A DNA stretch of 52,133 nt from Candidatus Saccharimonadota bacterium (GTDB lineage Bacteria; Patescibacteriota; Saccharimonadia; Saccharimonadales; JAQGHD01): assembly GCA_028288965.1 (NCBI GenBank), contig JAQGHD010000021.1, positions 1 through 52,133 of the forward strand. Direction: 5' to 3'. Shown here in pieces: positions 288-21,871 of the stretch. The notes under the pieces were generated by a model. That model ran no database searches. It had not been told where the DNA came from and saw only the letters and a list, made by a program, of their open reading frames with translations. Within the stretch, counting starts at the first letter, position 1, and each line of letters starts with the position of its first letter. The position numbers were made by a program, and so were the translations under genes.

Positions 288-441
288 CCGTCCGGCGCGA
301 TCGGGCAACAGCTTGAATCACCTCAAATTGTAGCACCTTGATTTCTGGCTCAAGCATAGCAACCGTGTCCTCAATGACGGCCACTCCAATAGCCATATCC
401 GTGGATAAGAATTTTAGTCGCTGTAGTTCAGGTCGTTCCAT
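271..441 (-). CDS. Small hypothetical protein, 56 aa, convergent with gltX
   Basis: An ATG at 441-439 opens a 56-codon frame ending in TGA at 273-271. Seven bases before the ATG on the minus strand is AGGTGG, a plausible Shine-Dalgarno site. The product (MERPELQRLKFLSTDMAIGV...) has a hydrophobic-acidic middle (VAVIEDTVAMLEPEIKVLQF) that could form a strand-helix unit, and an Arg-rich end. Its 3' end overlaps the 3' end of gltX by 17 bp in tail-to-tail orientation, and it diverges from the sigma-like gene at 509. I recognise no family. The codons look ordinary for the genome, but so short a frame may be chance. Confidence 0.4.
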   Translation of the reverse strand: MERPELQRLKFLSTDMAIGVAVIEDTVAMLEPEIKVLQFEVIQAVARSRRTANPET

Positions 442-508
442 AATTACGCCACCTATAAAGTCAATAATTTGGCTTACACTTATTAATATTTTTATATATA
501 GTAATAGA

Positions 509-2029
509 ATGTACGAAAAATTACCAATTACTGGTGAAATAGGTTTTGATAAGAATGTTGGCGCTGAGGCTAGTGATCAAAATCCGGCTGCCACTTTAGG
601 CACAACTGCCATGCATGCATTCAGCAGCAACGGCGAAATAATCCAGTTGGATACAGAGCTAAATACGCTTGATATCCTGGAAGGCTTACAAGCATCTGGC
701 TTAGAACCAACCGCCTTACTGTATATTGATCGAGCCATGGGCCTAAAACCGGTCAAGTTACAGGAACTTATGGTAAAAGAGTGGGATTTTATTGTTTTGT
801 CCGATGCCCAAAAGCAGGCTTTTGCCGATAATCTACTTGGTTTGCACGAACAAGTAAGTTGCCATTTGGCAGATAAAGGCATATTGAGTCAGTGGTTCAC
901 GGAGGACCACGATGATAAACCAGCCTACCAGCTCTTTGTTGGCAAACCAGCACCAGCACCAGCACCAGCACCAGCCCCCCAAGAGACCCCCGCACCCCCC
1001 AAGTCAAAGCCAGCTAAAGCTAAAGACAAGCCAGAGGACTTCATGTTACGAAGAGTGAAGTTTATCTTCTCTGAACTTGATCAGCAACTCGACGACCCCG
1101 ATCTCATTAAAATGTATTTTGCAGATGCCTATCAGTATAAACTACTCACCCGTGACGATGAGCAGCGCCTTAGCCAGCTTATAGATGAAGGCGTAGCAGC
1201 TCAGAGAATTCTCGACGCCCATGACGCCACAGAAGGCAATAGTACAGCCGACAATAGCCACGCCCTACAGACAGCGGTAAAAGATGGCCAAGCAGCTCGC
1301 CAAGAGTTCATCCAAGCAAACTTGCGGCTAGTGGTACGATCGGCAACAAGCTATCTTGGGCGCGGGGCAGCACTGCTTGATCTTATCCAAAGTGGTAACC
1401 GACAGCTGATTCGGGCGGTTGACAAATTTGATGCGCGTTTGGGCTTTAAGTTTAGCACCTACGCCTCGTCACGGATTCATAGAGCAATGTATACGTGTGT
1501 TACCGAGGCACAATCCATCTATTTACCAGAGCCGACTTACAGAGAACTAGAGGGTATCAAGGACTACGAACAGCAATTTGCCGTTGCACACGGGCGGTAC
1601 CCAACCGTTGATGAAATGGCAAACAACTTAGAGCAAACGCCGGATCGCATCCGAAAATTAATGCAATTTGCCGAACCGCCGCTGTCATTAGACGAGCCCA
1701 TTGCAGACGAAACAATGGAACGCGCTGAACAGCTCGCCGATCCGCAAGCAGAAATAATTATGAACAGCGCCCTTACGCGCATAGCCTGTCAGGGCATTCT
1801 TGATGAGTTATTGACGGTCTTGGATGATCGTGAGCAGGCGGTAATTGAATTGCGGCATCCTTTGGACGGTAGCCAAGCGCTTACCCTGGAAGAAGCAGGC
1901 AATGAGTTTGGAGTAACGAGAGAAAGGGTTCGTCAAATTGAGGCTAAAGCCTTTGCTAAAATGCGGGCCAATCCAATAGCCCGCACAATTTCTGCCGGGG
2001 AATTGTTTTCAGAGGAAGTGTTTTCATAA
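509..2029 (+). CDS. Sigma-70-family factor with novel N-terminal domain
   Basis: A 506-residue RNA polymerase sigma factor. I start it at ATG 509 because a TATATA -10 box ends about ten bases before it, as in other apparently leaderless genes here, and because the N-terminus (MYEKLPIT) resembles that of the next gene (MFETLPIT). An N-terminal domain of about 95 residues (LDILEGLQASG ... YQLFVG) is shared with the proteins at 4512 and 20450. A PAPAPAPAP linker follows, then sigma region 2 (NLRLVVRSATSYLGRG, LLDLIQSGN, AVDKFDARLGFKFSTYAS), region 3, and region 4 (LTLEEAGNEFGVTRERVRQIEAKA) for -35 recognition. The region 2.3 tryptophan pair of housekeeping sigma factors (TYATWWIRQ) is replaced by TYASSRIHR, so promoter opening may differ. 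Probably an alternative rather than the primary sigma. Confidence 0.85.
   Translation: MYEKLPITGEIGFDKNVGAEASDQNPAATLGTTAMHAFSSNGEIIQLDTELNTLDILEGLQASGLEPTALLYIDRAMGLKPVKLQELMVKEWDFIVLSDAQKQAFADNLLGLHEQVSCHLADKGILSQWFTEDHDDKPAYQLFVGKPAPAPAPAPAPQETPAPPKSKPAKAKDKPEDFMLRRVKFIFSELDQQLDDPDLIKMYFADAYQYKLLTRDDEQRLSQLIDEGVAAQRILDAHDATEGNSTADNSHALQTAVKDGQAARQEFIQANLRLVVRSATSYLGRGAALLDLIQSGNRQLIRAVDKFDARLGFKFSTYASSRIHRAMYTCVTEAQSIYLPEPTYRELEGIKDYEQQFAVAHGRYPTVDEMANNLEQTPDRIRKLMQFAEPPLSLDEPIADETMERAEQLADPQAEIIMNSALTRIACQGILDELLTVLDDREQAVIELRHPLDGSQALTLEEAGNEFGVTRERVRQIEAKAFAKMRANPIARTISAGELFSEEVFS
945..977 (+). repeat. Hexanucleotide repeat encoding (PA)n linker
   Basis: Tandem CCAGCA-type units within the sigma gene encode an alternating Pro-Ala linker between the N-terminal domain and the sigma regions. 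The unit is six bases, so slippage would change linker length without a frameshift. Confidence 0.6.
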
Positions 2030-2523: not shown

Positions 2524-3273
2524 TCAGAAGAGCGCTTCCAGCCGTTCGATAAGCTCTTGCAGTCGTTCGGTACCCACCAGATCGCGGATAGCCCGACGAC
2601 GCTCAGTGGACATCGGCTCGAACATCGCCAGGGGATGGTCGCTTGGACCGAGCAGCGTGCTCAGCGATGTCACCAAACTGTCGATAACAGCCGGTTCGTG
2701 GGGCGTACCGACGATGATCGGTTCGGCGCTGGCCGTCTGGTAAGTCGTTACCGGTCCGGAAGTCGACGACAAGTCCAGATCGAGCTTTTGTTCGATCGTT
2801 GCGATCAACGTGGCTCGACGCTTCTGAACCTCTGCCGCCATCTCCTTGATCATGCCATCCAGCGCGATCAACTTGTCGGAAGGCAATCGAACTGTTTCCC
2901 CCCGCAAAAGCCGGTGCACGTCTTGCTCATTCTGGTAGCCCAGACGCACTTTGACGTTTTTCAGGGTGAGTACCTGAAGCCCGAGAATCTCGGCCAAGCT
3001 GCGGTAATTCTTGGGCAGCTGAGTGAGCTCGCTGATGCGATAGCCCGCAGCCGTCAAGAAAACCGCTAACCGAAACTTTACCTCGCCGGTGGGGGCACTC
3101 GGTTTGTGAATACCACCACGGGTTTCACCCTCGCGCCAACGAAGAACCGTGTCGGTGCTCACCGAACAGGATTCGGCAATGAGGTTACGGACAGTAAGCC
3201 AGCCGGTGGGATACTTCGCCACAAAGTGATGAAAGCATACCACCACTTCACCTTCGTAGGTCCGGGGAGGCAT
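2524..3273 (-). CDS. HTH-like protein, partner of the DGQHR protein
   Basis: A 249-residue soluble protein. I start it at the ATG at 3273-3271 that overlaps the TAA of the upstream gene (TAATG), which implies translational coupling. The N-terminal part (WLTVRNLIAESCSVSTDTVLRW) looks like a helix-turn-helix, and a second segment (YRSLAEILGLQVLTLKNVKV) might be another. The C-terminal half is a long amphipathic helical region (IKEMAAEVQKRRATLIATIEQKL) followed by an acidic, helical tail. I recognise no named family. Because it is coupled to the DGQHR-domain gene and shares its promoter and ribozyme-ended mRNA, it probably acts with it, perhaps as the DNA-binding partner. GC content and codon use are higher than in flanking core genes. 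Confidence 0.8.
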   Translation of the reverse strand: MPPRTYEGEVVVCFHHFVAKYPTGWLTVRNLIAESCSVSTDTVLRWREGETRGGIHKPSAPTGEVKFRLAVFLTAAGYRISELTQLPKNYRSLAEILGLQVLTLKNVKVRLGYQNEQDVHRLLRGETVRLPSDKLIALDGMIKEMAAEVQKRRATLIATIEQKLDLDLSSTSGPVTTYQTASAEPIIVGTPHEPAVIDSLVTSLSTLLGPSDHPLAMFEPMSTERRRAIRDLVGTERLQELIERLEALF

Positions 3274-4316
3274 TATTCCGCAGCCCTTCTTTCCGCCTCG
3301 GCCCATGTCTCCAGATCACTGGACATCCAACGCCTCGTGATTTGCTCCGTAAACGTCCGGCGCATCATGTGGCGAGCGTCTTTGTCGCGCCCGAAGGCAT
3401 GGATTCGAACCGATTCACTGGAAGGGTTGATTCCGGCCAGTTGCTTACGCACCGGCGGTGCAATCTTCAGTCGGGTGCCCTCCCAGAAATAGGTGTAGTC
3501 GGCAAAGACATCGGCCAGGATGAGCATGAAGTTGTGGCTCAAGATGGTCGCGCCCTTGCGCTCTATCTTGGACAACTCCCAGCACTCCTCGAACACGTCG
3601 AAGAACTCCTCGACGTTGGCCTTGAAGCTGGCTTCGCCCACCTTGTCGATGATCTGCAGGAGGTTGGCCGCCAGTTCATCGGAACCACTGGCTTTGCCAG
3701 GACCCCAGTGACTGTGCAACCGAGCCACAATCTTGACCAGCGTGGGCGCTGACATCAAGTGCGTCGGCTTGGCCCCCTGGTCCCACGTCACTCGCTTGAG
3801 CAGCGGCCGAGACCGGTTTTCGGTGTAGCGCAACAAGATGCGCATGGCCGGGTTCGTATCTGCCAAGTTGCGCAGCTTGATGTTCGCCGACAGTTGCGTG
3901 CGATGGAAGTTGAGCAGGTCGAACTGCCGCTTCTCCCATTCGTACGTCTGGTTGACGGCAATGCTGACGCCAATTAGGGGTTCGCTCGGAGCGCCGTTCT
4001 TCATGGCCAGCTCTTTGGAACGGACACGCTGTTGGCCGTCAACGATGAAGACATCGTCTTGGATTTCAACACTGCCATCATCATGCAGCTTGAAACGGCG
4101 GCCGCGGATGTTGAGGTTGATGTCGTTAACGCGTTCACCCGCCGTGTGGGCTTCTACGAGCTCCTGGAAATTCTTCTTTTGTACCAACACTTCGCGCTGG
4201 TAGTCGTCAACCTGCAAAGCAGGCAAGCTGCTGGAGTCCACGTACCCATGGATGAACACATCGCCATCCTCAAGTTCATGGACCATGGCATGTCGAATCA
4301 CTACTTTTCCAGCCAC
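3273..4316 (-). CDS. DGQHR-domain (DndB/ParB-like) protein
   Basis: A 347-residue protein with the motif VDGQQR at about residues 92-97, followed by FDLLNFHRTQLSANIKLR. This is the signature of the DGQHR family, related to the ParB/Srx fold and to DndB of DNA phosphorothioate systems. I see none of the dnd modification genes nearby, so a DNA-sulfur role is not supported. Members of the fold bind nucleotides or DNA and often sit in defence or mobile loci. The start is GTG at 4316, chosen for the AAAAAAGGAG Shine-Dalgarno five bases upstream. It is the first gene of cassette 1 and is translationally coupled to the 2524-3273 gene. Role uncertain. Confidence 0.75.
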   Translation of the reverse strand: MAGKVVIRHAMVHELEDGDVFIHGYVDSSSLPALQVDDYQREVLVQKKNFQELVEAHTAGERVNDINLNIRGRRFKLHDDGSVEIQDDVFIVDGQQRVRSKELAMKNGAPSEPLIGVSIAVNQTYEWEKRQFDLLNFHRTQLSANIKLRNLADTNPAMRILLRYTENRSRPLLKRVTWDQGAKPTHLMSAPTLVKIVARLHSHWGPGKASGSDELAANLLQIIDKVGEASFKANVEEFFDVFEECWELSKIERKGATILSHNFMLILADVFADYTYFWEGTRLKIAPPVRKQLAGINPSSESVRIHAFGRDKDARHMMRRTFTEQITRRWMSSDLETWAEAERRAAE

Positions 4317-4511: not shown

Positions 4512-6107
4512 TCAATCCTGCTCGTTTACGTCTTTCAAAGGCAGTAAATAAGCGCTCTTGTCCGCACGATACTGATTCCACTCTACCGCTGAGGGAAACA
4601 AGTAAACATTCTTGGTAGTATTTTTGCTAGAGCGTGGACTGCGGCTACGCACAACTCTACCTGCTCGCGTTAGAATGCCATATCTTACAAGCTTATTACA
4701 TAAAGCACGGGTCGATTCTTCATCAAGGCCAATGTCCTGGGCAATATCCTCAGCTTCTTTGCCTCTACCCGGATAGCGCATGGCAATAATCGCGTCCAGT
4801 ATTCTCGGTGCAAGTGACAGATCTTCGTCAGTTATGGCATTTACATCTTCTTTTTGTGGCTTAGGGTTGTCGTTAGCCTTTTTCTTTACTAACGGCGCTA
4901 CCGGCTTTTCGAGAGACACCATGCGGCTGCCTTTCTGGGCACCACTGTAAAATAAATGCTCGCCGTCAACATACTTGGCGATCATAGCCTTGGCTTCCAA
5001 ACGGCTACAGTTTTTAAACTCGGTCAGCACCCCGGTGAGTTGCGGCAAGAGCACATCTCCCGTAGATAGGGTTTCGCGGAGCACACGGAGGATTTCGTGG
5101 TCTTCTAAGTGAAGGACCTGTGCTGGTTGTGGCCGACCAATTTGCTCAATTGTCTCGGTTGGCATGGTTTTAACAGTAGGTTGGCGCCGACCTTGACGGT
5201 CAGGCATAGCAACATCAATAATCGTGCCAAAGGTTTGTTTCAAGCCAGCCTTTTTATCGATCGGGGTTGGTTCTACCGGTTCAACCGCAGCCGGTCCAAC
5301 AATCAGTTGATAAAATTCCTTTTTATTAGTACGCCCGGTAGTTTTTACTTCCCACCTGGCAGGCACCTGTACATCCCCTAGAAGGGCAAGCACTTGGTGA
5401 CGGAGTTCACTTAAGTTTTGTTTGAAGTCATTGAACTCCGAATCGCTCAAAGCCATAAACTTCCAGCTTTTTTCGCGTAAAACTGCGAGCTCAACCGGAC
5501 GAATATCTAAAGCTGCTTCTACAAAACTAAGCTGCACCTGATCAAAACCATATCGCCCAAGATGCTCTAAAATATCTAGGGTGTTAATTTCCGCTGCAGC
5601 TGCTGCCTCTTCTTCAGCCTGGCGCTCAGCTTCCTCGGCAGCTTTTTGCTCAGCGGCTTTTTGCTCGGCGGCTTGACGTCGAGCAGCTTCGCGTTCGGCG
5701 GCTTTTTCTGCCAATGGCTGGGCAAATAAGGTATCGAAGGCATTCACAGCTTGTTTGTCATAGCCTAGTTCGGCTACGGCTGACATTGATGCCGGTACAG
5801 GAAGTTGATCGGCCGGAAGTATGCCCTCAGCCGCATATTGACTCAGTCTCATAAAAGAAGTTTGTCGCTGCCGGTCTTCATCATTCATTGCCAGTGCCAA
5901 TTGGCCAAGGGCCGTATAGTTTTTGGCCAGCTTGGGATTTTTTTCTATATAGGTAAACGCTCGCTCGTAACTAGTCGCTAAAGCTGTCTGATAGGCGTCA
6001 CGATGTTCCTCCGGTGCAGCGGCACTAGCTTCTAGCACCTCGGCCATAATTTTGGCCAGGCGATCAAACTCCAAGCGATCTGGATTTATACTAGCTTCTG
6101 TACTCAC
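4512..6107 (-). CDS. Protein with sigma-associated N-domain, coiled coil and possible C-terminal winged helix
   Basis: A 531-residue cytoplasmic protein starting at GTG 6107 (AGGA upstream). Order: a helical N-terminal part (about 1-120), an Ala/Glu-rich coiled coil (AEQKAAEQKAAEEAERQAEEE), then a domain of about 95 residues (TLDILEHLGRYGFDQVQLSFVEAALDIRPVELAVLREKSWKFMALSD ... YQLIVG) shared with the sigma-like proteins at 509 and 20450. The C-terminal third (ILDAIIAMRYPGRGKEAEDIAQDIGLDEESTRALCNKLVRYGILTR) resembles a winged-helix DNA-binding domain. It lacks sigma regions 2 and 4. I infer a transcription regulator that uses the common domain to contact the same partner as the two sigma proteins. 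It lies between cassettes 1 and 2 but has core-like base composition. Confidence 0.75.
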   Translation of the reverse strand: MSTEASINPDRLEFDRLAKIMAEVLEASAAAPEEHRDAYQTALATSYERAFTYIEKNPKLAKNYTALGQLALAMNDEDRQRQTSFMRLSQYAAEGILPADQLPVPASMSAVAELGYDKQAVNAFDTLFAQPLAEKAAEREAARRQAAEQKAAEQKAAEEAERQAEEEAAAAAEINTLDILEHLGRYGFDQVQLSFVEAALDIRPVELAVLREKSWKFMALSDSEFNDFKQNLSELRHQVLALLGDVQVPARWEVKTTGRTNKKEFYQLIVGPAAVEPVEPTPIDKKAGLKQTFGTIIDVAMPDRQGRRQPTVKTMPTETIEQIGRPQPAQVLHLEDHEILRVLRETLSTGDVLLPQLTGVLTEFKNCSRLEAKAMIAKYVDGEHLFYSGAQKGSRMVSLEKPVAPLVKKKANDNPKPQKEDVNAITDEDLSLAPRILDAIIAMRYPGRGKEAEDIAQDIGLDEESTRALCNKLVRYGILTRAGRVVRSRSPRSSKNTTKNVYLFPSAVEWNQYRADKSAYLLPLKDVNEQD

Positions 6108-6199: not shown

Positions 6200-6250
6200 A
6201 AGCTTTCGTCCTTTTGGACTCATCAGCATGAATACGCATTCATGGAGCTT
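6200..6250 (-). ncRNA. Hammerhead ribozyme, type III, cassette 2
   Basis: On the minus strand: stem III AAGC, UC at the cleavage site, stem I hairpin CAUGAAU-GCGU-AUUCAUG, CUGAUGAG, stem II UCC-AAAA-GGA, CGAAA, then GCUU closing stem III. Predicted cleavage is between 6245 and 6244. Compared with the copy at 2341-2391 the stem I pairs CAGAAAU/AUUUCUG become CAUGAAU/AUUCAUG and stem III ACCC/GGGU becomes AAGC/GCUU, so pairing is kept while sequence changes. It lies downstream of the ubiquitin-like gene that ends cassette 2. Confidence 0.92.
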
Positions 6251-6253
6251 TTG

Positions 6254-6350
6254 CACGGAATGGGAGACGATTGGTATGAAGAGTGCTAAGGCACTGCAAT
6301 CCATACACAGAATCATCTGCAACCATCCCGTGACTAGAGACTTTCTCTAG
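6254..6350 (-). ncRNA. Structured 3'-UTR element upstream of ribozyme (cassette 2)
   Basis: On the minus strand hairpin CUAGAGA-AAG-UCUCUAG (6350-6334) is identical to that of cassette 1. A three-way junction follows: P1 CACGGGAUGG (6332-6323) with CCAUUCCGUG (6263-6254), P2 GCAGA/UCUGU, P3 GUAUG/CAUAC enclosing AGUGC-CUUA-GCACU. The helices differ from those at 2396-2478 but pair in the same order, while GGUUG and AAUC-UCUCCC are kept. Confidence 0.75.
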
Positions 6351-6382: not shown

Positions 6383-6628
6383 TTAGCCGTTGATCACCTT
6401 GCCGACGACGACGAGCACGCTGTTGGCGGTCACCTCGTCGGTCGGAGCTGCCGGCGCGCCGTTGAGCGTTACCACCTGACCAGCCACCAGCCGAACATTG
6501 GCTCGGTCCAGGGCCTCCTGCACAGTGACGCCCGGCTCGTAATCGAGCGTTACGGTGTCACCGGCCAGTTGGGTAACGCGAATGACTTGTGCTTCGGCGG
6601 CTTCTTCGATGGTAGGTTCAGTAGTCAC
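6383..6628 (-). CDS. Ubiquitin-like beta-grasp protein (MoaD/ThiS/PRTRC-C-like)
   Basis: An 81-residue protein, the last gene of cassette 2. After a short acidic N-terminus the pattern is strand (QVIRVTQLAG), strand (TVTLDYEPG), helix (TVQEALDRANV), strand (QVVTLNGAPA) and a last strand ending VLVVVGKVING. The 'LNG' turn and C-terminal glycine are typical of MoaD/ThiS-type and prokaryotic ubiquitin-like proteins, whose terminal Gly is adenylated by an E1. Here the tail is NG rather than GG. Immediate neighbours are E1-, JAB- and E2-like genes, as in PRTRC and other bacterial Ubl operons, which favours protein conjugation over sulfur carrying. Translation starts at ATG 6628 with an AAGGAG-like site upstream. 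Confidence 0.8.
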   Translation of the reverse strand: MTTEPTIEEAAEAQVIRVTQLAGDTVTLDYEPGVTVQEALDRANVRLVAGQVVTLNGAPAAPTDEVTANSVLVVVGKVING

Positions 6629-6681
6629 GATTTCTCCTTGTTGGGTTCGTTTCGGTGTGGTCTAACTGTAATCACCTGTGA

Positions 6682-7353
6682 TCAGGCGGCCGCGAATTGC
6701 ATGGCTTTGAGGTGAGCGGTGAGATTGAGTTTGTAGGCCTCCTCTCGCAAGAAAAGCGTGAGCTGAGCCACCATGAGGTTGGCTAGTACGCCGGCGGGAT
6801 GGATAACTGTCCGAGCTGCGCAAGGCAATTCCATGCCTTCCGAGTCCGGAAACAGCCACTTCTCGTAGAACTCTGTCTCGTCGAAATTCGACGGGTTCAC
6901 GCAAAGCAACTGTAGTTGCTCGCCACCGATTCGTCCGTCCAAGTAGAACGGCACCAAGGGGTTGTACTTGACCGCCTCCCAGATGTCCGACCGACTCGAC
7001 ATGGAATCGACACAACTGAATACGACGCCCTCCAGAGCGGTCTCAGAAGTAACGTACTCCTCGTGCTGGACGACCTTGCAGTCGGCCTCTTGGCGTTCGA
7101 GGAAGTGCATCGCCGCTTCCACCTTGTTCAGACCCACGTCACTGGGACGATAGATCAATTGCGCAGGGATGTTGTGTGGTTCGACCGCATCGTGATCCCA
7201 CAGGTGAAGTTGGCTGACGCCGAGCTTGACCAACGGGTAGAGCAACGCGCTCCCGATACCACCGACACCAATGACATGCACTGGCCAGGTGAACTTATCG
7301 GGATCGAAGATCGCCCGTTGATCGCGGTAGTCAACATTCAGTCGGCTTCCCAT
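6682..7353 (-). CDS. E1-like ThiF/MoeB-family adenylating enzyme
   Basis: A 223-residue E1-like enzyme. A Rossmann ATP-binding loop GVGGIGS lies at residues 29-35, acidic residues WDHDAVEPHN at 52-61, and CVDSMSSR carries the conserved Asp at about 116. Cys178 in LPCAARTVIHPAG is in the position of the E1 catalytic cysteine. The Arg of the usual NxxRQ motif is replaced (NIPAQ), and the zinc-binding Cys pairs of MoeB/ThiF are absent, as in the short E1 enzymes of bacterial ubiquitin-like operons. It should activate the C-terminus of the Ubl encoded 53 bp downstream and hand it to the E2-like protein. It overlaps the JAB gene by 16 bp. Confidence 0.85.
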   Translation of the reverse strand: MGSRLNVDYRDQRAIFDPDKFTWPVHVIGVGGIGSALLYPLVKLGVSQLHLWDHDAVEPHNIPAQLIYRPSDVGLNKVEAAMHFLERQEADCKVVQHEEYVTSETALEGVVFSCVDSMSSRSDIWEAVKYNPLVPFYLDGRIGGEQLQLLCVNPSNFDETEFYEKWLFPDSEGMELPCAARTVIHPAGVLANLMVAQLTLFLREEAYKLNLTAHLKAMQFAAA

Positions 7354-7970
7354 GGAAGAATCTCCTCTCCACGTAGCGCCGCATGGACATTGTCGTTAGT
7401 CGGTTTGACGTGATTTTGTCGCATGAACCGACGCGGCTGACGCACCTTAGCGGCAACTTCGATTCGACACTCTGCAGCTAACCGCTCATCGACCACCGAA
7501 ACAACCTTGAGCTCGAGCGGAGTCCAGGTTCGGAACGGACGAAAAACGTCCAGTCTGAGCTCGTATTCGCCTAGCTTGTTGGTCACCATGCTGACCATCC
7601 AGTCAGCTGTGTACGCCTCGATGTTGGCCATGTCGGTACCGGAGAAAAACGCCGGCATACGAACATGTGAGTGCCACTGGAAACGCATCCGTGCCGTGTC
7701 CTCGCCCTGCAGGACCATGTCAGTAATGAAACGACCGAGTGCTATTGGGTCGATTTCTACCGCAGCGGGTTCGGCGGTTTGCTCGAGAATGAAGATGTTG
7801 CTCAGCTGGAGCTGATTTCCCAACCGATCGATCATCCCAAACCCGTTGATCTCCACCGGACAGGCCTGCACATACGCCATGATCTTCTGCCACATCTGGT
7901 ATGGCATGATCAGTGTCGGTGTCGGCATGAACCCCGCGGTTGCCTGATGCATTCCGGATTGATAGGTCAC
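7338..7970 (-). CDS. JAB/MPN+ metalloprotease (deubiquitinase-like)
   Basis: A 210-residue protein with a complete JAMM zinc motif: Glu40 (VEINGFG), His100 and His102 in HSHVRMPAFFSGTD, Ser110 and Asp113, giving H-x-H-x7-S-x2-D exactly. JAB peptidases of Ubl operons trim the Ubl precursor or remove it from targets. The Ubl here ends at its Gly, so no maturation is needed and deconjugation is the more likely role. It overlaps the E2-like gene by 4 bp (ATGA) and the E1 gene by 16 bp, so all are translated from one mRNA. The arrangement resembles PRTRC protein A and the JAB of Bil-type systems. Confidence 0.88.
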   Translation of the reverse strand: MTYQSGMHQATAGFMPTPTLIMPYQMWQKIMAYVQACPVEINGFGMIDRLGNQLQLSNIFILEQTAEPAAVEIDPIALGRFITDMVLQGEDTARMRFQWHSHVRMPAFFSGTDMANIEAYTADWMVSMVTNKLGEYELRLDVFRPFRTWTPLELKVVSVVDERLAAECRIEVAAKVRQPRRFMRQNHVKPTNDNVHAALRGEEILPWEAD

Positions 7971-9337
7971 TTCGCCTCCTTAAAGGCCTCGGGGATCCGG
8001 TACAAGTGCACGTCATTGACCGAGTGCAGACAATCTACTGCCACCTCCACGGCTTCCAGGAACTGGCCTTTATTCAAATTGTTGGAGATCACTGTAGCGC
8101 GATCGCCAAAACAGAAATGGCCATTCCCAAGCCGGTAAGCCGGATAGTAACCATCATCCCAACTTCTCCGAACGCCTGTTCGTAATTCTTTCGCGAACAG
8201 TCTAGGTGAAGCATCGAAGCGTATTTCCCAGTCACCCAGGTCATACACTGTACCTTCGTACACGATCTGCGGCTTCACTAGCACAGCGATGGAGTCATTT
8301 ACCACCCGAACGCCCTCGACGCCACGAAGGTTAAGCAAGCGATCGAACTCGATGTTGAGGTGTGCAAGATCCGGTGGTTCCGTATCCAGCTCCATTTTTT
8401 CAAGCTCAGCCTGAGCTACACGGACTTCATTGCGCTGTCCTTGCAGCAGACGAATTTCTTCACCTGCGTTGCGCAGTCGCTCCTCAACATCTTGCTGATC
8501 CTGGCGCAATTGATCGCGACGGCTTGCAATAACCTGCCCTCGGTTCATTGTTCGGATCTTCCGATACAACGATCGGGCCGCTTGAGGAGCACTGAAGAAC
8601 CGATACGACGGCTCGTGTTGTTGTTCAGTCTGCTCCAGCTCAGTAGCAAACGGGTCAAGAGCCTGATCAGCCCATTGGGCAGCTGCTTCAAGCTCCGTGT
8701 GCACGACCTCAATCTGCTGGTGAGTCGGCATGGTCAGCCGTTTGCGCGCTTTTCTAACCCGAACCGCACTTACCACGTAAAATGGCCAACCAAGCGGCAG
8801 AGCAGTAAAGAACACAGACGGATAAACCCATCCTTCGTTCCACCGGATGTCCAGCAACCCTTCGTGCCGTTTCCGAGACTGCAAGCCATATGAGGCAAAC
8901 AGTATCATTGAAAACAAACCGTAAATGGCGGCCAGGGTCAACGGCACATCCCGCTGCCAGAAATCTCTTCCGACATGGGGGTGGGGGTGCTCTAAGACCA
9001 ACCGGCTACCATCCTTGGCTACGGTTTGCAGATGTTTGACCTCCTGACTATCGAGGGTAACCACACTTATCGGTTGGGTGTGCATGTACAGGATTTCCTT
9101 GGCCAGGAGCATGCGCTTGGTCGGATCATGAACTGAGTTGACCGTTCGCATGAGGTATTCGTGCTCGTGTGAAGTGCGCAGTTGATGCGATTCTGAAACT
9201 GAATACGTAATGCCGCCAACAACTATGAACAAGAAGCCAACTAAGGCCACCAAGATCATGAGTGTGGCGTACCCGCGGTTATTACTCAACCTTGAAGCCA
9301 CGTCATCGTAGTCGAAGTGCCTGGGGCGAAGTACCAT
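7967..9337 (-). CDS. Membrane protein with coiled coil and E2-like C-terminal domain
   Basis: A 456-residue protein opening cassette 2, start ATG 9337 behind AAGGAG. It has a transmembrane segment near residues 24-46, two more near 130-150 and 172-192, a long coiled coil about 205-330, and a C-terminal soluble domain. That domain contains DGYYPAYRLGNGHFCFGD, followed by a helix and AVDCLHSVND. The pattern (Tyr/His-Pro, Gly, then Cys-x-Gly-Asp, then a long helix) matches prokaryotic E2-like domains such as PRTRC protein B; Cys409 would be the Ubl-accepting residue. With the E1, Ubl and JAB genes this makes a full conjugation set, but with the conjugating enzyme tied to the membrane. The E2 assignment is by motif and context only. 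Confidence 0.6.
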   Translation of the reverse strand: MVLRPRHFDYDDVASRLSNNRGYATLMILVALVGFLFIVVGGITYSVSESHQLRTSHEHEYLMRTVNSVHDPTKRMLLAKEILYMHTQPISVVTLDSQEVKHLQTVAKDGSRLVLEHPHPHVGRDFWQRDVPLTLAAIYGLFSMILFASYGLQSRKRHEGLLDIRWNEGWVYPSVFFTALPLGWPFYVVSAVRVRKARKRLTMPTHQQIEVVHTELEAAAQWADQALDPFATELEQTEQQHEPSYRFFSAPQAARSLYRKIRTMNRGQVIASRRDQLRQDQQDVEERLRNAGEEIRLLQGQRNEVRVAQAELEKMELDTEPPDLAHLNIEFDRLLNLRGVEGVRVVNDSIAVLVKPQIVYEGTVYDLGDWEIRFDASPRLFAKELRTGVRRSWDDGYYPAYRLGNGHFCFGDRATVISNNLNKGQFLEAVEVAVDCLHSVNDVHLYRIPEAFKEAK

Positions 9338-9507
9338 GACTATTCTCCTTACAAGTTGCTACTGCCTAGGTGACGGCTCACCGTAATAAGCCAGCACCTA
9401 AGCAGAAAATCTCGTAAGAAGTTACTCGTCTTAAGTTTTTAAATAACAAAAAGCCAGAAACTGACTTTTCAGGGGGTAATTATATAATTATAAATGAATT
9501 AGGTCAA
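9338..9507 (-). promoter_or_regulatory. Promoter and structured leader of cassette 2
   Basis: On the minus strand TTGACC (9507-9502), 17 bases, TATAAT (9484-9479); start near 9472. The ~135-nt leader opens with a small CUGA-AAAG-UCAG hairpin, then GUUAUUUA (9447-9440), and six bases later UAAGACGAG (9433-9425), the complement of the segment at 6366-6358 behind the last gene. A hairpin with CUGCUUAGGUG/CACCUAGGCAG stands before the AAGGAG ribosome-binding site. Confidence 0.8.
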
Positions 9508-12201: not shown

Positions 12202-12549
12202 ATGTTTTATTATACCTGGTTTTAATATAGTTATTATACTATAAATCCTTATATTTATCAATATGCTAATCAATCCTTTTGCATTTTTACAACTTTTATT
12301 AAATAACTTGTATTTTATTGACATCAGCAGTAAAATATGGACACCTAACCAAAGGTGAGGAACATTCATCCGCGAGGAGAAATAGTTAATCCCAAATGGT
12401 CGGCGTACCCACTGTAGGTCCGTTAAGGTGCTAAGGCACTCCAGCAGACTTCGGCGGGGGAGTTATTTAACAGATCGCACTGCAAAACACAGCTAAAGCC
12501 AAGAGGACTCTTCGGGGTCTTGTTACCGCCTCAATGTAAGGAGCTAGTC
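12202..12549 (+). promoter_or_regulatory. Promoter and structured leader of cassette 3
   Basis: TTGTAT (12308-12313), 17 bases and TAAAAT (12331-12336) predict a start near 12343. The leader of about 205 nt begins with hairpin CACC-UAACCAAA-GGUG (12342-12357). It later holds GUUAUUUA (12462-12469) and, five bases on, UCGCACUGCA (12475-12484), the complement of 14716-14725 behind the last gene. A hairpin with a UUCG loop (about 12500-12525) precedes UAAGGAG and the ATG at 12550. Bases 12202-12300 are AT-rich and hold the minus-strand promoter of the ATPase gene (TATAAT at 12214-12209). Confidence 0.75.
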
Positions 12550-14220
12550 ATGAGCAGAAGCAGGAAAGTATTCCTGTTACCTCTGGTCATTACGCTGCTC
12601 GCTGTAGCAATGAGTTCGGCCAGTATGCAGGCAAGCGCAGACAGCGCAACTGCTACAACACCGACCACAGCGTCGACAGCCGGAACACCACCCGCCCCGC
12701 AGGCAACATCAGCCTGCATTTCCCAGCCAGTCCCCACCACAGCTGATACCCCGTTTACCACCGACACGCAACAACGCGTACAGGCGGCCCAACGAGCGGT
12801 ACCAGCCGAGTTCAAATCGGAAATGCCGCCTAGCAATCCGGCCGCACCCCTGTCGGCTACGACACACCTCCCGGCCACCCTGAACGAACCCGTCGTTCTG
12901 TCTGGCTTGGTGGCGGTGCAGCTACAAGGAACACGAGCTGGAGCCGCTCAGGCATCCAACCGGGCTCAGAAGCTGTTCGCCAATGGTTTGTCCAACACGG
13001 ACGTCGTTGTTGAACAGGGAGATGACACCGTACGGACCAGTCTGGTGCTTAACAACGCTGGCGCACCCCGCCAGTTCCAATTCTCGTTTGCGCCGATTTG
13101 CGCCGACGGGAAGAGCACCAGCCCCAATACGATCCACCTGGAACAGGGCCGCGACGGCAACGTTCAGGTGATTTCGGACAACGGGCTCGATGAACACGCT
13201 ATTGGCGTGGCGTACAAGCCGTGGGCAGTTGACGCCGTCGGTAAGCGTTTGGCAACATCGTATCGAATCAGCGGCAACACGCTGACTCAACGTGTCGATG
13301 TCAAGAACGCGGTATTCCCGGTGGTCGCTGACCCGACCTACTACGCCATGACCTGCGACGCCGGGTACTACACGTCTGCGTCGGCAGATCAGTTCGTGGA
13401 CTTCGGGTACTGCCCAGTGTGGGCCTGGTTCTATGCCGCAAGGGGATATACTCCCGTGCGCGCCTACGCTCCCCACATCTACAACGACCGCAAGTACGTC
13501 TACGTTGACCAGGGAGGCGACTGTTCACATGCTCCTGACACAGGACTGAATTTCGATTTCTCGGTTCCGTGTCGAGCCCACGACTACTGCTATGACCTGC
13601 TCAGAGCGGCCATGGGTGGCGTCGTAAAGTCAGCGTGCGACAATCTTTTCCTCGCGCTGATGAACGATGACTGCAACGACCGTACCTTTCCTGGTACTGG
13701 TGCCGCCTGTCGGTTCATTGCCAAAACGTACTACGACGCTGTCGGATTGGTCGGCAGCCCGGCGAAATTCAATTCGCCTTACCTGCACTTGGTGGCGTCG
13801 CACAGTAGTAAGTGTGCCGACATCAACAACAAGAACGGTGGAGCAGTCCAGTCGTTTGCGGTACTCCAGCAGTACGGCTGCTCGGGAGGTAGCAACCAGA
13901 CCTTCCGGTTCTTCAAGTACGACAACGCCGGCACCTACACCATCCAGTCGCTGATAAACACCGGCAACTGCTTGGCGCGGGACTGGAACAAGTACAGCCA
14001 GGAATGGATTATCTGGACGGAATACTGCACAGCACTTCGCTCCGTTGCGAACTCCATCTGGAGGCCGCGGGGCATCAACTACCACAACCAGTATTCCATC
14101 TTCCTGTCCGGGCAATTGGTGTGCTGGGATGTGCCGTACTCCTCGTTGTTCGACGAAGTGTGGATAATCACTTATCCATGCTCGGAGACCAGCAACGAGG
14201 TTTGGTACATGAGACGTTAA
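12550..14220 (+). CDS. Secreted phospholipase A2 with ricin-type lectin domain
   Basis: A 556-residue exported protein. ATG 12550 is preferred because TAAGGAG lies seven bases upstream and a signal peptide follows (MSRSRKVFLLPLVITLLAVA...ASA). A Thr/Ala/Pro-rich stretch and a ~200-residue unknown domain come first. Residues about 325-385 contain VPCRAHDYCYDLL: His344-Asp345 flanked by Cys341 and Cys347 is the catalytic signature of the prokaryotic/fungal phospholipase A2 family. Many further cysteines suggest disulfides. The C-terminus (about 410-555) has ricin-B-like features (KCADINNKNGGAVQ ... NQTFRF, NCLARDWN), a sugar-binding fold. It should hydrolyse phospholipids outside the cell after glycan binding. 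For an epibiont this would suit attack on, or feeding from, a host cell. GC-rich, Actinobacteria-like codon use. Confidence 0.8.
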   Translation: MSRSRKVFLLPLVITLLAVAMSSASMQASADSATATTPTTASTAGTPPAPQATSACISQPVPTTADTPFTTDTQQRVQAAQRAVPAEFKSEMPPSNPAAPLSATTHLPATLNEPVVLSGLVAVQLQGTRAGAAQASNRAQKLFANGLSNTDVVVEQGDDTVRTSLVLNNAGAPRQFQFSFAPICADGKSTSPNTIHLEQGRDGNVQVISDNGLDEHAIGVAYKPWAVDAVGKRLATSYRISGNTLTQRVDVKNAVFPVVADPTYYAMTCDAGYYTSASADQFVDFGYCPVWAWFYAARGYTPVRAYAPHIYNDRKYVYVDQGGDCSHAPDTGLNFDFSVPCRAHDYCYDLLRAAMGGVVKSACDNLFLALMNDDCNDRTFPGTGAACRFIAKTYYDAVGLVGSPAKFNSPYLHLVASHSSKCADINNKNGGAVQSFAVLQQYGCSGGSNQTFRFFKYDNAGTYTIQSLINTGNCLARDWNKYSQEWIIWTEYCTALRSVANSIWRPRGINYHNQYSIFLSGQLVCWDVPYSSLFDEVWIITYPCSETSNEVWYMRR

Positions 14221-14812: not shown

Positions 14813-14885
14813 AATTTGATCAACGAATAGCACCAATAAGGTGAAGAGTCGTTCTGATGAGCTGTATACAGCGAAATCAAATTTA
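14811..14885 (+). ncRNA. Hammerhead ribozyme, type III, cassette 3
   Basis: Stem III UUUGA/UCAAA (14815-14819 with 14877-14881, extendable by two A-U pairs), cleavage triplet AUC with the cut after 14821, stem I AACGA/UCGUU with internal loop AUAG/AAGAG and distal CACC/GGUG, core CUGAUGAG at 14854-14861, stem II CUG-UAUA-CAG, then CGAAA. All conserved core bases are present. The stem I internal loop and the stem II loop are placed for the loop-loop contact known to speed natural hammerheads. Confidence 0.93.
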
Positions 14886-16185: not shown

Positions 16186-16256
16186 GCTCGAATAAACGAA
16201 TAGCACCTAATAAGGTGAGAAGTCGTTCTGATGAGCTGTAAACAGCGAAATCGAGC
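16186..16256 (+). ncRNA. Hammerhead ribozyme, type III, cassette 4
   Basis: Stem III GCUCGA/UCGAGC (16186-16191, 16251-16256), stem I AACGA/UCGUU with distal CACCU/AGGUG and internal loop AUAG/AGAAG, CUGAUGAG, stem II CUG-UAAA-CAG, CGAAA. The expected cut follows AUA at 16194. One extra A (16192) lies between stem III and the cleavage triplet compared with the other copies. This could slow cleavage or be accommodated as a bulge. Confidence 0.88.
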
Positions 16257-16955: not shown

Positions 16956-17029
16956 TATCGATAAACGAATAGTGCCCATCCCATAGGGCAAAAAGTCGTT
17001 CTGATGAGCTGTAAACAGCGAAATCGATA
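16956..17029 (+). ncRNA. Hammerhead ribozyme, type III, cassette 5
   Basis: Stem III UAUCGA/UCGAUA (16956-16961, 17024-17029), cut after AUA at 16963, stem I AACGA/UCGUU with internal loop AUAG/AAAAG and distal UGCCC/GGGCA, core CUGAUGAG at 17001-17008, stem II CUG-UAAA-CAG, CGAAA. The distal stem I helix is wholly different from CACC/GGUG of the other plus-strand copies yet pairs fully, strong support for a conserved RNA. Confidence 0.93.
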
Positions 17030-20449: not shown

Positions 20450-21871
20450 TTATAAAATTTCATAGATCTTTGCGAGAGACCTCAATCTCTTAAGGGCACC
20501 CCCGACGATTTGGCAAGCACGTGACTCAGTAAAACCCAGTTGTCTACCTATTTCAGCCAATTTATAATCCGACTCGTACGGCGTCAGACCGAAGTACATG
20601 CGAGTAACCATTTGCTGCCGTTCAGGTAACATACTAACAATATTTTCTAGATCAACAGCTTGGGCGGTAGCTAGAACCTCATCTTCGACACTTACGGTAT
20701 CTGGTATATCCCATGCTTGGCGATCAGAATCAACCGTCTCGTGAATAGACAGTGTGTGGGCTCGGTTTGATCTGGCTTGTATAATTTGAACTTTCGGGAT
20801 ATCGATATCTAAACCTTCAGCAACAGTTATTAGATCTACGCCGGTCGCCTGGGCGTCTTTTATTTTTTTCATATGCTGCATATCATGGCGACTCAAACGT
20901 ATAGCATTACCAGTCCTGCGCAGAGCATCTATGGCCGCACCCTTGATACGGTATATACAGAAAGTACTTACTTTAGCCTCAGTGGTACCTAGGTCAAAGC
21001 GAGCCATAGACTCGAGTAGGCCATCAAGGCCTTCGGCGGTGAGGTCTTGCTGGGTAAGACTACTAGCCATGTGAACATACGAACGAATAAGCGACGCTAC
21101 AAGAGGCTGGGCCTGTCTGAAAAAGGTATTGAATGTTTCGGTTATGGCCAAAGCAGTCTCTATGTAATCTGCCTCTGGCATACTGTTTTTAAAGACATCG
21201 TGGGCCCGCAGTAACAGCACCATACTGCGCATAATGTCATCTTCGTAAAACCAATTAGGATGGGCCAGCTCGGTCCTCATATTGGCCGCTAACGCCCGCA
21301 AATTTTCTAACTTACTTGGCAAGTCCTCGCCCTGAATGAAGTAATCAATAGTCTCTTGATCGCTCAGCTCTACTTGGGGTGCCACAAAGGCTTTTTGTAG
21401 ATGCCCTCCCTTAAAGACCGTTATTTCTACAGTTGGCTTGTGGTTCAGGTAGATTTCAAGTTCTGTTGGTGGCTCTTCATCAGGTATCTGCTCAGCGGCT
21501 TCGCCTAAAATGAGCTGCTGATGGGCCTTTTCGCCAAAGCCACGCACCGCCCATTTGGCAATAATATCTACGGCCTTTAGGTGGTCTACGACGTCTTGAC
21601 GAATATCAGGTAAAAGGCTTGCGAATCTTTGATATTCAAGGTCAGAAAGTTTAACTATATCCCAGGTTTCCTGGCGCAATACCTGCAGAGTTACCGGCTG
21701 ACGATCCAAGGCGCGATCAACCAACGTGAGCACCGGATCATCGAAACCACTCTTCTTTAAATAGTCTAAAATGTCTATATCATTTAACTCTTCACTTAAT
21801 CCTTGTCCAGGCACATTATCAAGGACTGCTTCGTGGTTAAAACTGTCTAATAATTCTGGTGAACTTGACAT
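20450..21871 (-). CDS. Sigma-70-family factor (FliA/WhiG-like) with novel N-domain
   Basis: A 473-residue protein. The first ~130 residues carry the domain shared with the proteins at 509 and 4512 (DIDILDYLKKSGFDDPVLTLVDRALDRQPVTLQVLRQETWDIVKLSD ... QLILGEAAE). After a ~130-residue helical middle come region 2-like sequence (ESMARFDLGTTEAKVSTFCIYRIKGAAIDALRR, as in FliA-type 'RIRGAMLDELR'), a region 3-like part, and region 4 (MLPERQQMVTRMYFGL ... LAEIGRQLGFTESRACQI). The start ATG 21871 lies nine bases after TATATA on the minus strand, so the mRNA is probably leaderless. Probably an alternative sigma with regulon unknown. Confidence 0.8.
   Translation of the reverse strand: MSSSPELLDSFNHEAVLDNVPGQGLSEELNDIDILDYLKKSGFDDPVLTLVDRALDRQPVTLQVLRQETWDIVKLSDLEYQRFASLLPDIRQDVVDHLKAVDIIAKWAVRGFGEKAHQQLILGEAAEQIPDEEPPTELEIYLNHKPTVEITVFKGGHLQKAFVAPQVELSDQETIDYFIQGEDLPSKLENLRALAANMRTELAHPNWFYEDDIMRSMVLLLRAHDVFKNSMPEADYIETALAITETFNTFFRQAQPLVASLIRSYVHMASSLTQQDLTAEGLDGLLESMARFDLGTTEAKVSTFCIYRIKGAAIDALRRTGNAIRLSRHDMQHMKKIKDAQATGVDLITVAEGLDIDIPKVQIIQARSNRAHTLSIHETVDSDRQAWDIPDTVSVEDEVLATAQAVDLENIVSMLPERQQMVTRMYFGLTPYESDYKLAEIGRQLGFTESRACQIVGGALKRLRSLAKIYEIL

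Follow-up and report, generated by a model that had tools for sequence, protein, structure and literature searches.

A predicted ubiquitin-like conjugation operon with a membrane-tethered E2-like protein in a Saccharimonadota genome

Complete bacterial systems that unite an E1, an E2, a deubiquitinating enzyme and a ubiquitin-like protein (Ubl) are few, and they are regarded either as ancestral to ubiquitin signalling or as cousins of it. The closest described ones are Bil (bacterial ISG15-like, also Bub; BilA-D) and the PRTRC cassette, which we take to be operon type 6d of Iyer et al. 2006. Here we analyse four minus-strand genes at positions 6383-9337 of a 52,133-nucleotide stretch of DNA from a Candidatus Saccharimonadota bacterium (contig JAQGHD010000021.1; the whole stretch is called the window), whose source genome of 916 kb lies in 30 contigs and is 94% complete. 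Its close relatives by sequence bear the labels Saccharibacteria/Saccharimonadia. Gene content, folds, conserved residues, membrane segments and the ribozyme, as described below, were computed here. On sequence and structure prediction, we read the four genes, with a probability of about 0.85, as a self-contained system for Ubl conjugation and deconjugation. The operon is a real, new variant of bacterial Ubl conjugation, adding a membrane-integral E2 and an NG-ending modifier to the known bacterial systems. The literature, subscription papers not covered, yielded no report of ubiquitin-like systems in Saccharibacteria or Patescibacteria.

The operon runs from the E2-like gene through JAB and E1 to the Ubl gene (Table 1), the order and place given in the initial annotation, which had also described the genes as overlapping. 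The E2-like and JAB open reading frames share 4 nt, JAB and E1 share 16 nt, and the Ubl gene follows after 53 nt that hold a good AAGGAG ribosome-binding site. An E2 search across 393 genomes of this class, with that of the window among them, gave matches in 16. The loci of 15 relatives together with the window make up a comparison set of 17 systems, since one genome (L030) carries two. E2 and E1 occur in all 17 systems, the Ubl gene adjoins them in every one, including cases missed by a simple search, and JAB is present in 15. The E1, JAB and E2 distances correlate across loci (r 0.68-0.88; 0 of 2000 permutations), which fits a unit that moves and evolves together. Chance is excluded because the same operon is conserved at many unrelated loci and its genes co-diverge. 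The double locus (L030, 5720-15608) holds two diverged four-gene systems ~3 kb apart, one of the soluble and one of the membrane type. The gene between the two copies has a relative in L029, a DNA topoisomerase.

Three of the products carry the marks of established families. First, the E1-like protein belongs to the E1/ThiF superfamily: its Pfam ThiF domain scores 80.1 bits against a gathering score of 28.1, it has the catalytic Cys, and the best PDB match of its profile is UBA3, the NEDD8 E1. Residues G29, G31, D53, D55, K77, D116, R121 and C178 are invariant, and among them G29-x-G31, the E1 glycine motif, and C178 bear out the P-loop and the cysteine that had been picked out from the sequence. 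The usual NxxR arginine is missing, as had been remarked, with N61-IPAQ in its place; the homologue in L026 retains NLKRQ. This E1 is the sole ThiF-family protein found in the genome. Second, the JAB protein matches Pfam Prok-JAB weakly, and its profile finds Rpn11 as the best PDB match. By sequence it carries the JAMM/MPN+ motif E ... HxHx7SxxD, and the annotated JAMM residues E40, H100-S-H102, S110 and D113 proved invariant in homologues. JAB is lacking in L026 and L031, and in the very few cases seen its absence goes with a Ubl that lacks an extension. Third, the Ubl is predicted to be a beta-grasp modifier with an exposed C-terminal Gly. Its AlphaFold2 model (predicted local distance difference test, pLDDT, 86) is a beta-grasp for which Foldseek returns SAMP1/ubiquitin at E 2e-4, and also NEDD8 and SUMO. 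The terminal Gly is invariant in 27 Ubls, and the NG ending already noticed in the window recurs in all Ubls of the 17 systems, two of which have one extra residue.

The C-terminal domain of the E2-like protein is taken as a divergent UBC domain, on the strength of its predicted structure and of profile comparison. The initial annotation had presumed an E2 here and let the assignment hinge on two points, the predicted fold of this domain and the conservation of Cys409; both came out in its favour. The AlphaFold2 model, at a pLDDT of 93.3, follows the UBC order of alpha1, beta-meander, Cys loop (Cys98 in the model is Cys409) and three helices, and Cys409 is invariant in 45 of 45 aligned E2 domains. 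In the E2 alignment of the compared systems, at a mean identity of 19%, Y365, G368, D369, F408 and C409 are invariant. Run against PDB, the 45-domain profile ranks nine UBE2L3-type chains first (E 0.09), in an alignment that reaches through the catalytic Cys and sets YDKGAFRIEI opposite the consensus YDLGDYEI. The profile of the HPH...CxGN sister family alone reaches UBE2L3 at E 0.005, with HPNI opposite HPHI. The domain resembles UBE2L3 (UbcH7) and other UBC enzymes in the order alpha1, beta-meander, Cys, alpha2-4, in a catalytic Cys that stands in register and in a common YDxGxFxI strand motif. It differs from UBE2L3 in its very low identity, in the YP.Y that replaces HPN in the Saccharibacterial branch, and in an N-terminal membrane and coiled-coil domain. 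Two related E2s, in L032 (8620-9945, minus strand) and L033 (8233-9660, plus strand), each have a tandem pair of UBC-like domains, and in each protein one member of the pair apparently lacks the catalytic motif.

Between the membrane region and the UBC-like domain lies the long coiled coil that had been described. Hydropathy is strong for the first two membrane segments and weaker for the third, which spans about residues 171-192 and has a central Pro. The initial annotation counted three membrane helices; the membrane region itself stands and recurs in homologues, but the third segment may be re-entrant, and the region is a feature of a subgroup and not of the whole family. By hydropathy, two or three membrane segments occur in the window and in L021-L028, L030a, L037, L040, L041, L048, L045 and L066, and the remaining members, including the phage members examined, have a soluble E2. 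The three-segment domain recurs in a Saccharibacterial subgroup, where the protein starts with a short basic N-tail, the first transmembrane segment, a net-negative loop of 60-100 residues and the second transmembrane segment, followed by a [YF]xLxDLP-like loop motif, the hydrophobic segment with a central WP and a basic stretch. The charges favour an inside position for the N-tail, the second loop and the C-terminal part, for which reason the third segment is possibly re-entrant. The catalytic domain is probably cytoplasmic, because the E2 must meet the E1, and conjugation is likely localised to the membrane. Membrane-anchored eukaryotic E2s (UBE2J1/J2, Ubc6) have a C-terminal tail anchor. 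They are similar in that a membrane-tied E2 restricts conjugation to nearby substrates; the anchor here is N-terminal and bears a coiled-coil stalk, so that the principle is alike but the anchor is not homologous.

Several observations weigh against this reading of the operon. The UBE2L3 match of the Saccharibacteria-weighted profile (E 0.09) is not significant alone, and Foldseek finds no solved structure in PDB for the E2 domain at E<0.001, the best being E 0.16. Saccharibacterial E2s lack the HPN/HPH histidine, the window having YPAY, and HPH[IV] is kept in relatives outside Saccharibacteria. Two of the 17 systems are without JAB, and positive charge flanks the third membrane segment on both sides, which conflicts with a simple three-pass topology. 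The weak Foldseek matches of the domain include UbcH7 (best TM about 0.46), UbcH8, the TSG101 UEV, RWD and a CBASS E2; against BFVD there was no significant match. The lack of a match at E<0.001 marks the domain as a divergent UBC and not a close copy. Could it instead be an unrelated domain with a structural cysteine? The Pfam Prok-E2 models, which match none of 26 E2 members (17 + 9), and the want of a strong Foldseek match would suit such a domain, but a continuous profile link leads to HPHV...CxGN proteins that occupy the same operon position and match UBE2L3 including HPN and Cys, and the secondary-structure order is that of UBC, so that we regard this alternative as very unlikely. The kinship of the E1 with ThiF, MoeB and MccB would also accommodate a sulfur-carrier or small-molecule pathway without protein conjugation. 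That pathway seems hardly probable at all, given a UBC-like protein with an invariant Cys in 17 of 17 systems, the lack of rhodanese or biosynthetic enzymes within the operon, and neighbours that vary from locus to locus.

Table 1. Features of the operon and its flanks; positions are those of the window.
Feature	Position	Strand	Basis
Promoter-like site TTGACC-N17-TATAAT, 5' of the operon (candidate)	9479..9507	-	consensus scan, 11/12 matches
E2-like gene, 456 residues: membrane domain, coiled coil, C-terminal UBC-like domain	7967..9337	-	match in 16 of 393 class genomes
Transmembrane segment 1 (residues 25-43)	9209..9265	-	hydropathy 2.78; recurs in 14+ homologues
Transmembrane segment 2 (residues 131-149)	8891..8947	-	hydropathy
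Third hydrophobic segment, central WP, possibly re-entrant (residues 174-192)	8762..8818	-	conserved WP...VS..R pattern
Coiled-coil region (about residues 205-315)	8393..8725	-	weak coiled-coil type Pfam/PDB matches only
UBC-like catalytic domain (residues 312-456)	7970..8404	-	AlphaFold2 pLDDT 93.3, predicted TM-score (pTM) 0.86; profile top matches UBE2L3
Proposed catalytic Cys409 (FCFG)	8111..8113	-	invariant in 45 domains; aligned with UBE2L3 catalytic Cys
JAB/JAMM isopeptidase gene, 210 residues	7338..7970	-	Prok-JAB 2.3e-4; profile best PDB match Rpn11 2.5e-7
JAMM core HSHx7SxxD (residues 100-113)	7632..7673	-	invariant; in all but one wider-family JAB reading frame listed
E1-like adenylyltransferase gene, 223 residues	6682..7353	-	ThiF 1.8e-22; best PDB match UBA3 6e-20
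E1 catalytic Cys178	6820..6822	-	invariant in 16; aligned with conserved Cys of a ThiF-family protein
Ubl gene, 81 residues, C-terminus ...KVING	6383..6628	-	terminal Gly; beta-grasp model
3' untranslated region, small hairpin CTAGAGAAAGTCTCTAG	6334..6350	-	same element 5' of second ribozyme, 2481-2497
3' untranslated region, long stem-loop directly 5' of ribozyme	6254..6332	-	folded here and at sister 3' ends
Hammerhead ribozyme type III, predicted cleavage between 6245 and 6244	6200..6250	-	Rfam RF00008 E 9e-4, 32.2 bits; full core, three stems

If the four proteins act as their families do, the E1 would use ATP to adenylate the Ubl at its C-terminal Gly81 and load the Ubl on Cys178, from which it would move to Cys409 of the E2. 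The catalytic domain would sit on its coiled-coil stalk, presumably at the cytoplasmic side, and conjugation would be limited to proteins at or near the inner membrane face because the E2 is membrane-integral. The operon encodes no E3, and the E2 therefore probably picks its targets itself. The JAB metalloprotease would take the Ubl off again, and probably matures those Ubls that have one or two residues after NG.

By analogy, the operon would work like the Bil and PRTRC systems, and it is not filed as a member of either. The resemblance to both that had been proposed is right as to gene content, which is equal; membership does not follow, since the E2 and the Ubl go unrecognised by both profile sets. 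With Bil the operon shares the arrangement of Ubl, E2, JAB-type deconjugase and E1 in one operon, and its E1 matches the BilD profile of PADLOC at 6.8e-8, a generic E1/BilD match. The PADLOC profiles of BilA, BilB and BilC find no match to the Ubl, E2 or JAB at E<=1, so that assignment to Bil fails on profiles, with the E1 alone matching. Unlike Bil, the operon has a membrane-integral E2 and an NG-ending Ubl and lies outside defence islands. With PRTRC it shares the set of Ubl, JAB, E1 and E2, an E2 without the classical active-site His and a weak similarity (PRTRC_A 0.013, PRTRC_ThiF 1.8e-9). Against the NCBIfam cut-offs, PRTRC_A scores 15.1 bits where 101.8 are required and PRTRC_ThiF 37.3 where 144.75 are, with no match to B or C, and PRTRC membership was rejected. 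Unlike PRTRC, no alpha-helical partner gene is seen at the locus. The E2 of operon type 6d is defined by a downstream His (Iyer et al. 2006; PMC1779556), and this His is not invariant in the E2 family described here. The Caldiarchaeum ubiquitin operon is likewise a compact prokaryotic set of E1, E2, Ubl and Rpn11-like protein, and the JAB here is closest to the Rpn11 type; unlike that operon, the present one has no RING E3 that we could find and an E2 of a different family, the Caldiarchaeum E1 and E2 not having been compared directly.

Scanning GTDB contigs once and viral contigs once with the E1 profile revealed a wide family. GTDB loci come from Saccharibacteria, Parcubacteria-type lineages, Chloroflexota, Rubrobacter, NC10/Methylomirabilota, Nitrospinota, Omnitrophota, Planctomycetota and an Aenigmatarchaeote (a DPANN archaeon), and the viral scan gave 19 contigs; in nearly all of these loci, Ubl, E2 and/or JAB genes adjoin the E1. 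The family thus reaches from candidate phyla, Chloroflexota and NC10 to a DPANN archaeon and phages, and its E2 and Ubl are missed by Pfam, PHROGs, PADLOC and NCBIfam, where the members scanned gave no family match for the Ubl and no useful match for the E2. Outside Saccharibacteria the E2s usually carry HPH[IV]..G..C[LW]GN, and Ubl endings in GG or AG are commoner than NG. In a quick E1 tree most Saccharibacterial systems cluster (SH-like approximate likelihood ratio test 93). Xanthomonas phage PhiXhv-12 has an 892-residue E2 of the same family, with a profile score of 2e-24 that is not independent because its domain was a row of that profile. In this jumbo phage (L093, 2745-7497) the operon consists of an SGG-ending Ubl, the E2 (HPHM...CLG), whose flanking ends are rich in cysteine and may bind zinc, and an E1 that carries the annotation thiamine biosynthesis protein. 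In the crAss-like phage crAss001 (L091, 2238-6648; gp79-gp76) a JAB-E1 pair, gp77 and gp76, follows gp78, which has an HSHV...PCTG motif, and gp79, which has a Ubl-like look without a terminal Gly. The reading of gp78 as an E2 was rejected, since its likeness is one of motif only; profiles confirmed neither gp78 nor gp79.

As to what the system is for, we lean slightly towards an accessory function of patchy occurrence, anti-phage defence for instance, and away from regulation of the envelope. In a defence role of the Bil kind, the membrane-bound E2 would tag proteins of phages or mobile elements at the membrane and block their entry or assembly. This proposal, tentative and somewhat short of an even chance, draws on a gene content equal to that of Bil, the patchy presence (16 of 393 genomes), the two diverged copies in one genome (L030) and relatives carried by phages; it has to contend with neighbours that are mostly housekeeping genes (for example tRNA synthetases, pyruvate kinase, topoisomerase, RNase Y, FtsH) and not defence islands, and with PADLOC recognising the E1 alone through a generic E1/BilD match. 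Neighbour genes shared across loci were also sought as clues to function, and none were found beyond close pairs. Reversible Ubl tagging might otherwise regulate machinery at the cell's own membrane or surface (that of pili, secretion or host attachment), perhaps sensed via the extracytoplasmic loop of the E2. The conserved membrane module, whose outer loop in the membrane subgroup is net-negative and 60-100 residues long, and the reversibility implied by the JAB eraser speak for such a role, which is nonetheless unlikely: related systems use soluble E2s, and most relatives do without the operon, whose function is therefore not a core one. A more doubtful reading would make the protein a transmembrane signal-gated E2, whose outer loop, sensing the envelope through phage or host contact, would switch on Ubl conjugation at the inner face. 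If true, the protein would be a receptor-type conjugating enzyme for a ubiquitin-like modifier in bacteria, for which we know of no precedent. The purpose of protein tagging becomes testable in such cells because the genome that carries the system is near-minimal and belongs to an epibiont-type lineage.

A self-cleaving ribozyme at the 3' end of the operon is a second testable oddity. The ribozyme-ended mRNA that had been proposed is borne out by a type III hammerhead with the complete core CUGAUGA...GAAA, an NUH site and three stems, and hammerheads also stand roughly 75-160 nt 3' of the Ubl stop in L021, L031, L037 and L038, five loci with the window. Rfam was run at a relaxed threshold, and both this ribozyme (6250-6200, 32.2 bits) and a second type III hammerhead on the same strand (2393-2339, E 1e-5) fall below the RF00008 gathering score of 48.5. 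Both have a complete core, a 7-bp stem I and a 4-bp stem II, and in stem III the letters differ while complementarity is kept. The complete catalytic core and three stems are those of RF00008; what sets this ribozyme apart is its score below gathering and its place, where a Ubl operon ends and a long stem-loop immediately precedes it. A long stem-loop is found directly 5' of the ribozyme in the window and at three other loci, the fold in L031 being less clear, and in the genome of L031 (G095) the single hammerhead-pattern match is the one after the Ubl operon. The CTAGAGAAAGTCTCTAG hairpin has two copies only in the window's genome (6334-6350 and 2481-2497). The hammerhead would separate the operon transcript from the next gene by cutting just after the stable stem-loop, and the cleaved mRNA would end in a long stem that may stabilise it. 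The second hammerhead, with the same hairpin and long stem-loop, ends the neighbouring P531-P347-P260 gene group, and this repetition gives the two transcripts one kind of 3' end. Three more hammerhead cores on the plus strand of the window (14854-14876, 16228-16250, 17001-17023), each 3' of a small open reading frame, differ in their stem II (GCUGUAWACAGC) and have a stem I that is longer, and contig C15 holds two further copies of a third kind.

Some other genes of the window can be described briefly. A DGQHR/DndB-like protein (3273-4316, minus strand; TIGR03187 3.7e-9) has a counterpart beside the Ubl operon of L021, which is also adjoined by a relative of the 260-residue protein and the TraD-like ATPase. 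Three proteins of the window (338-2029, plus; 20450-21871, minus; 4512-6107, minus) share, by eye in their translations, an N-terminal segment like LNTLDIL..L...G......LIDRAL...PV.L; two are sigma-70-like, and the other is a 531-residue protein adjoining the Ubl operon. Further along, at 12520-14220 on the plus strand, lies a protein that looks secreted; its domains are of the prokaryotic phospholipase A2 and ricin-type lectin kinds.

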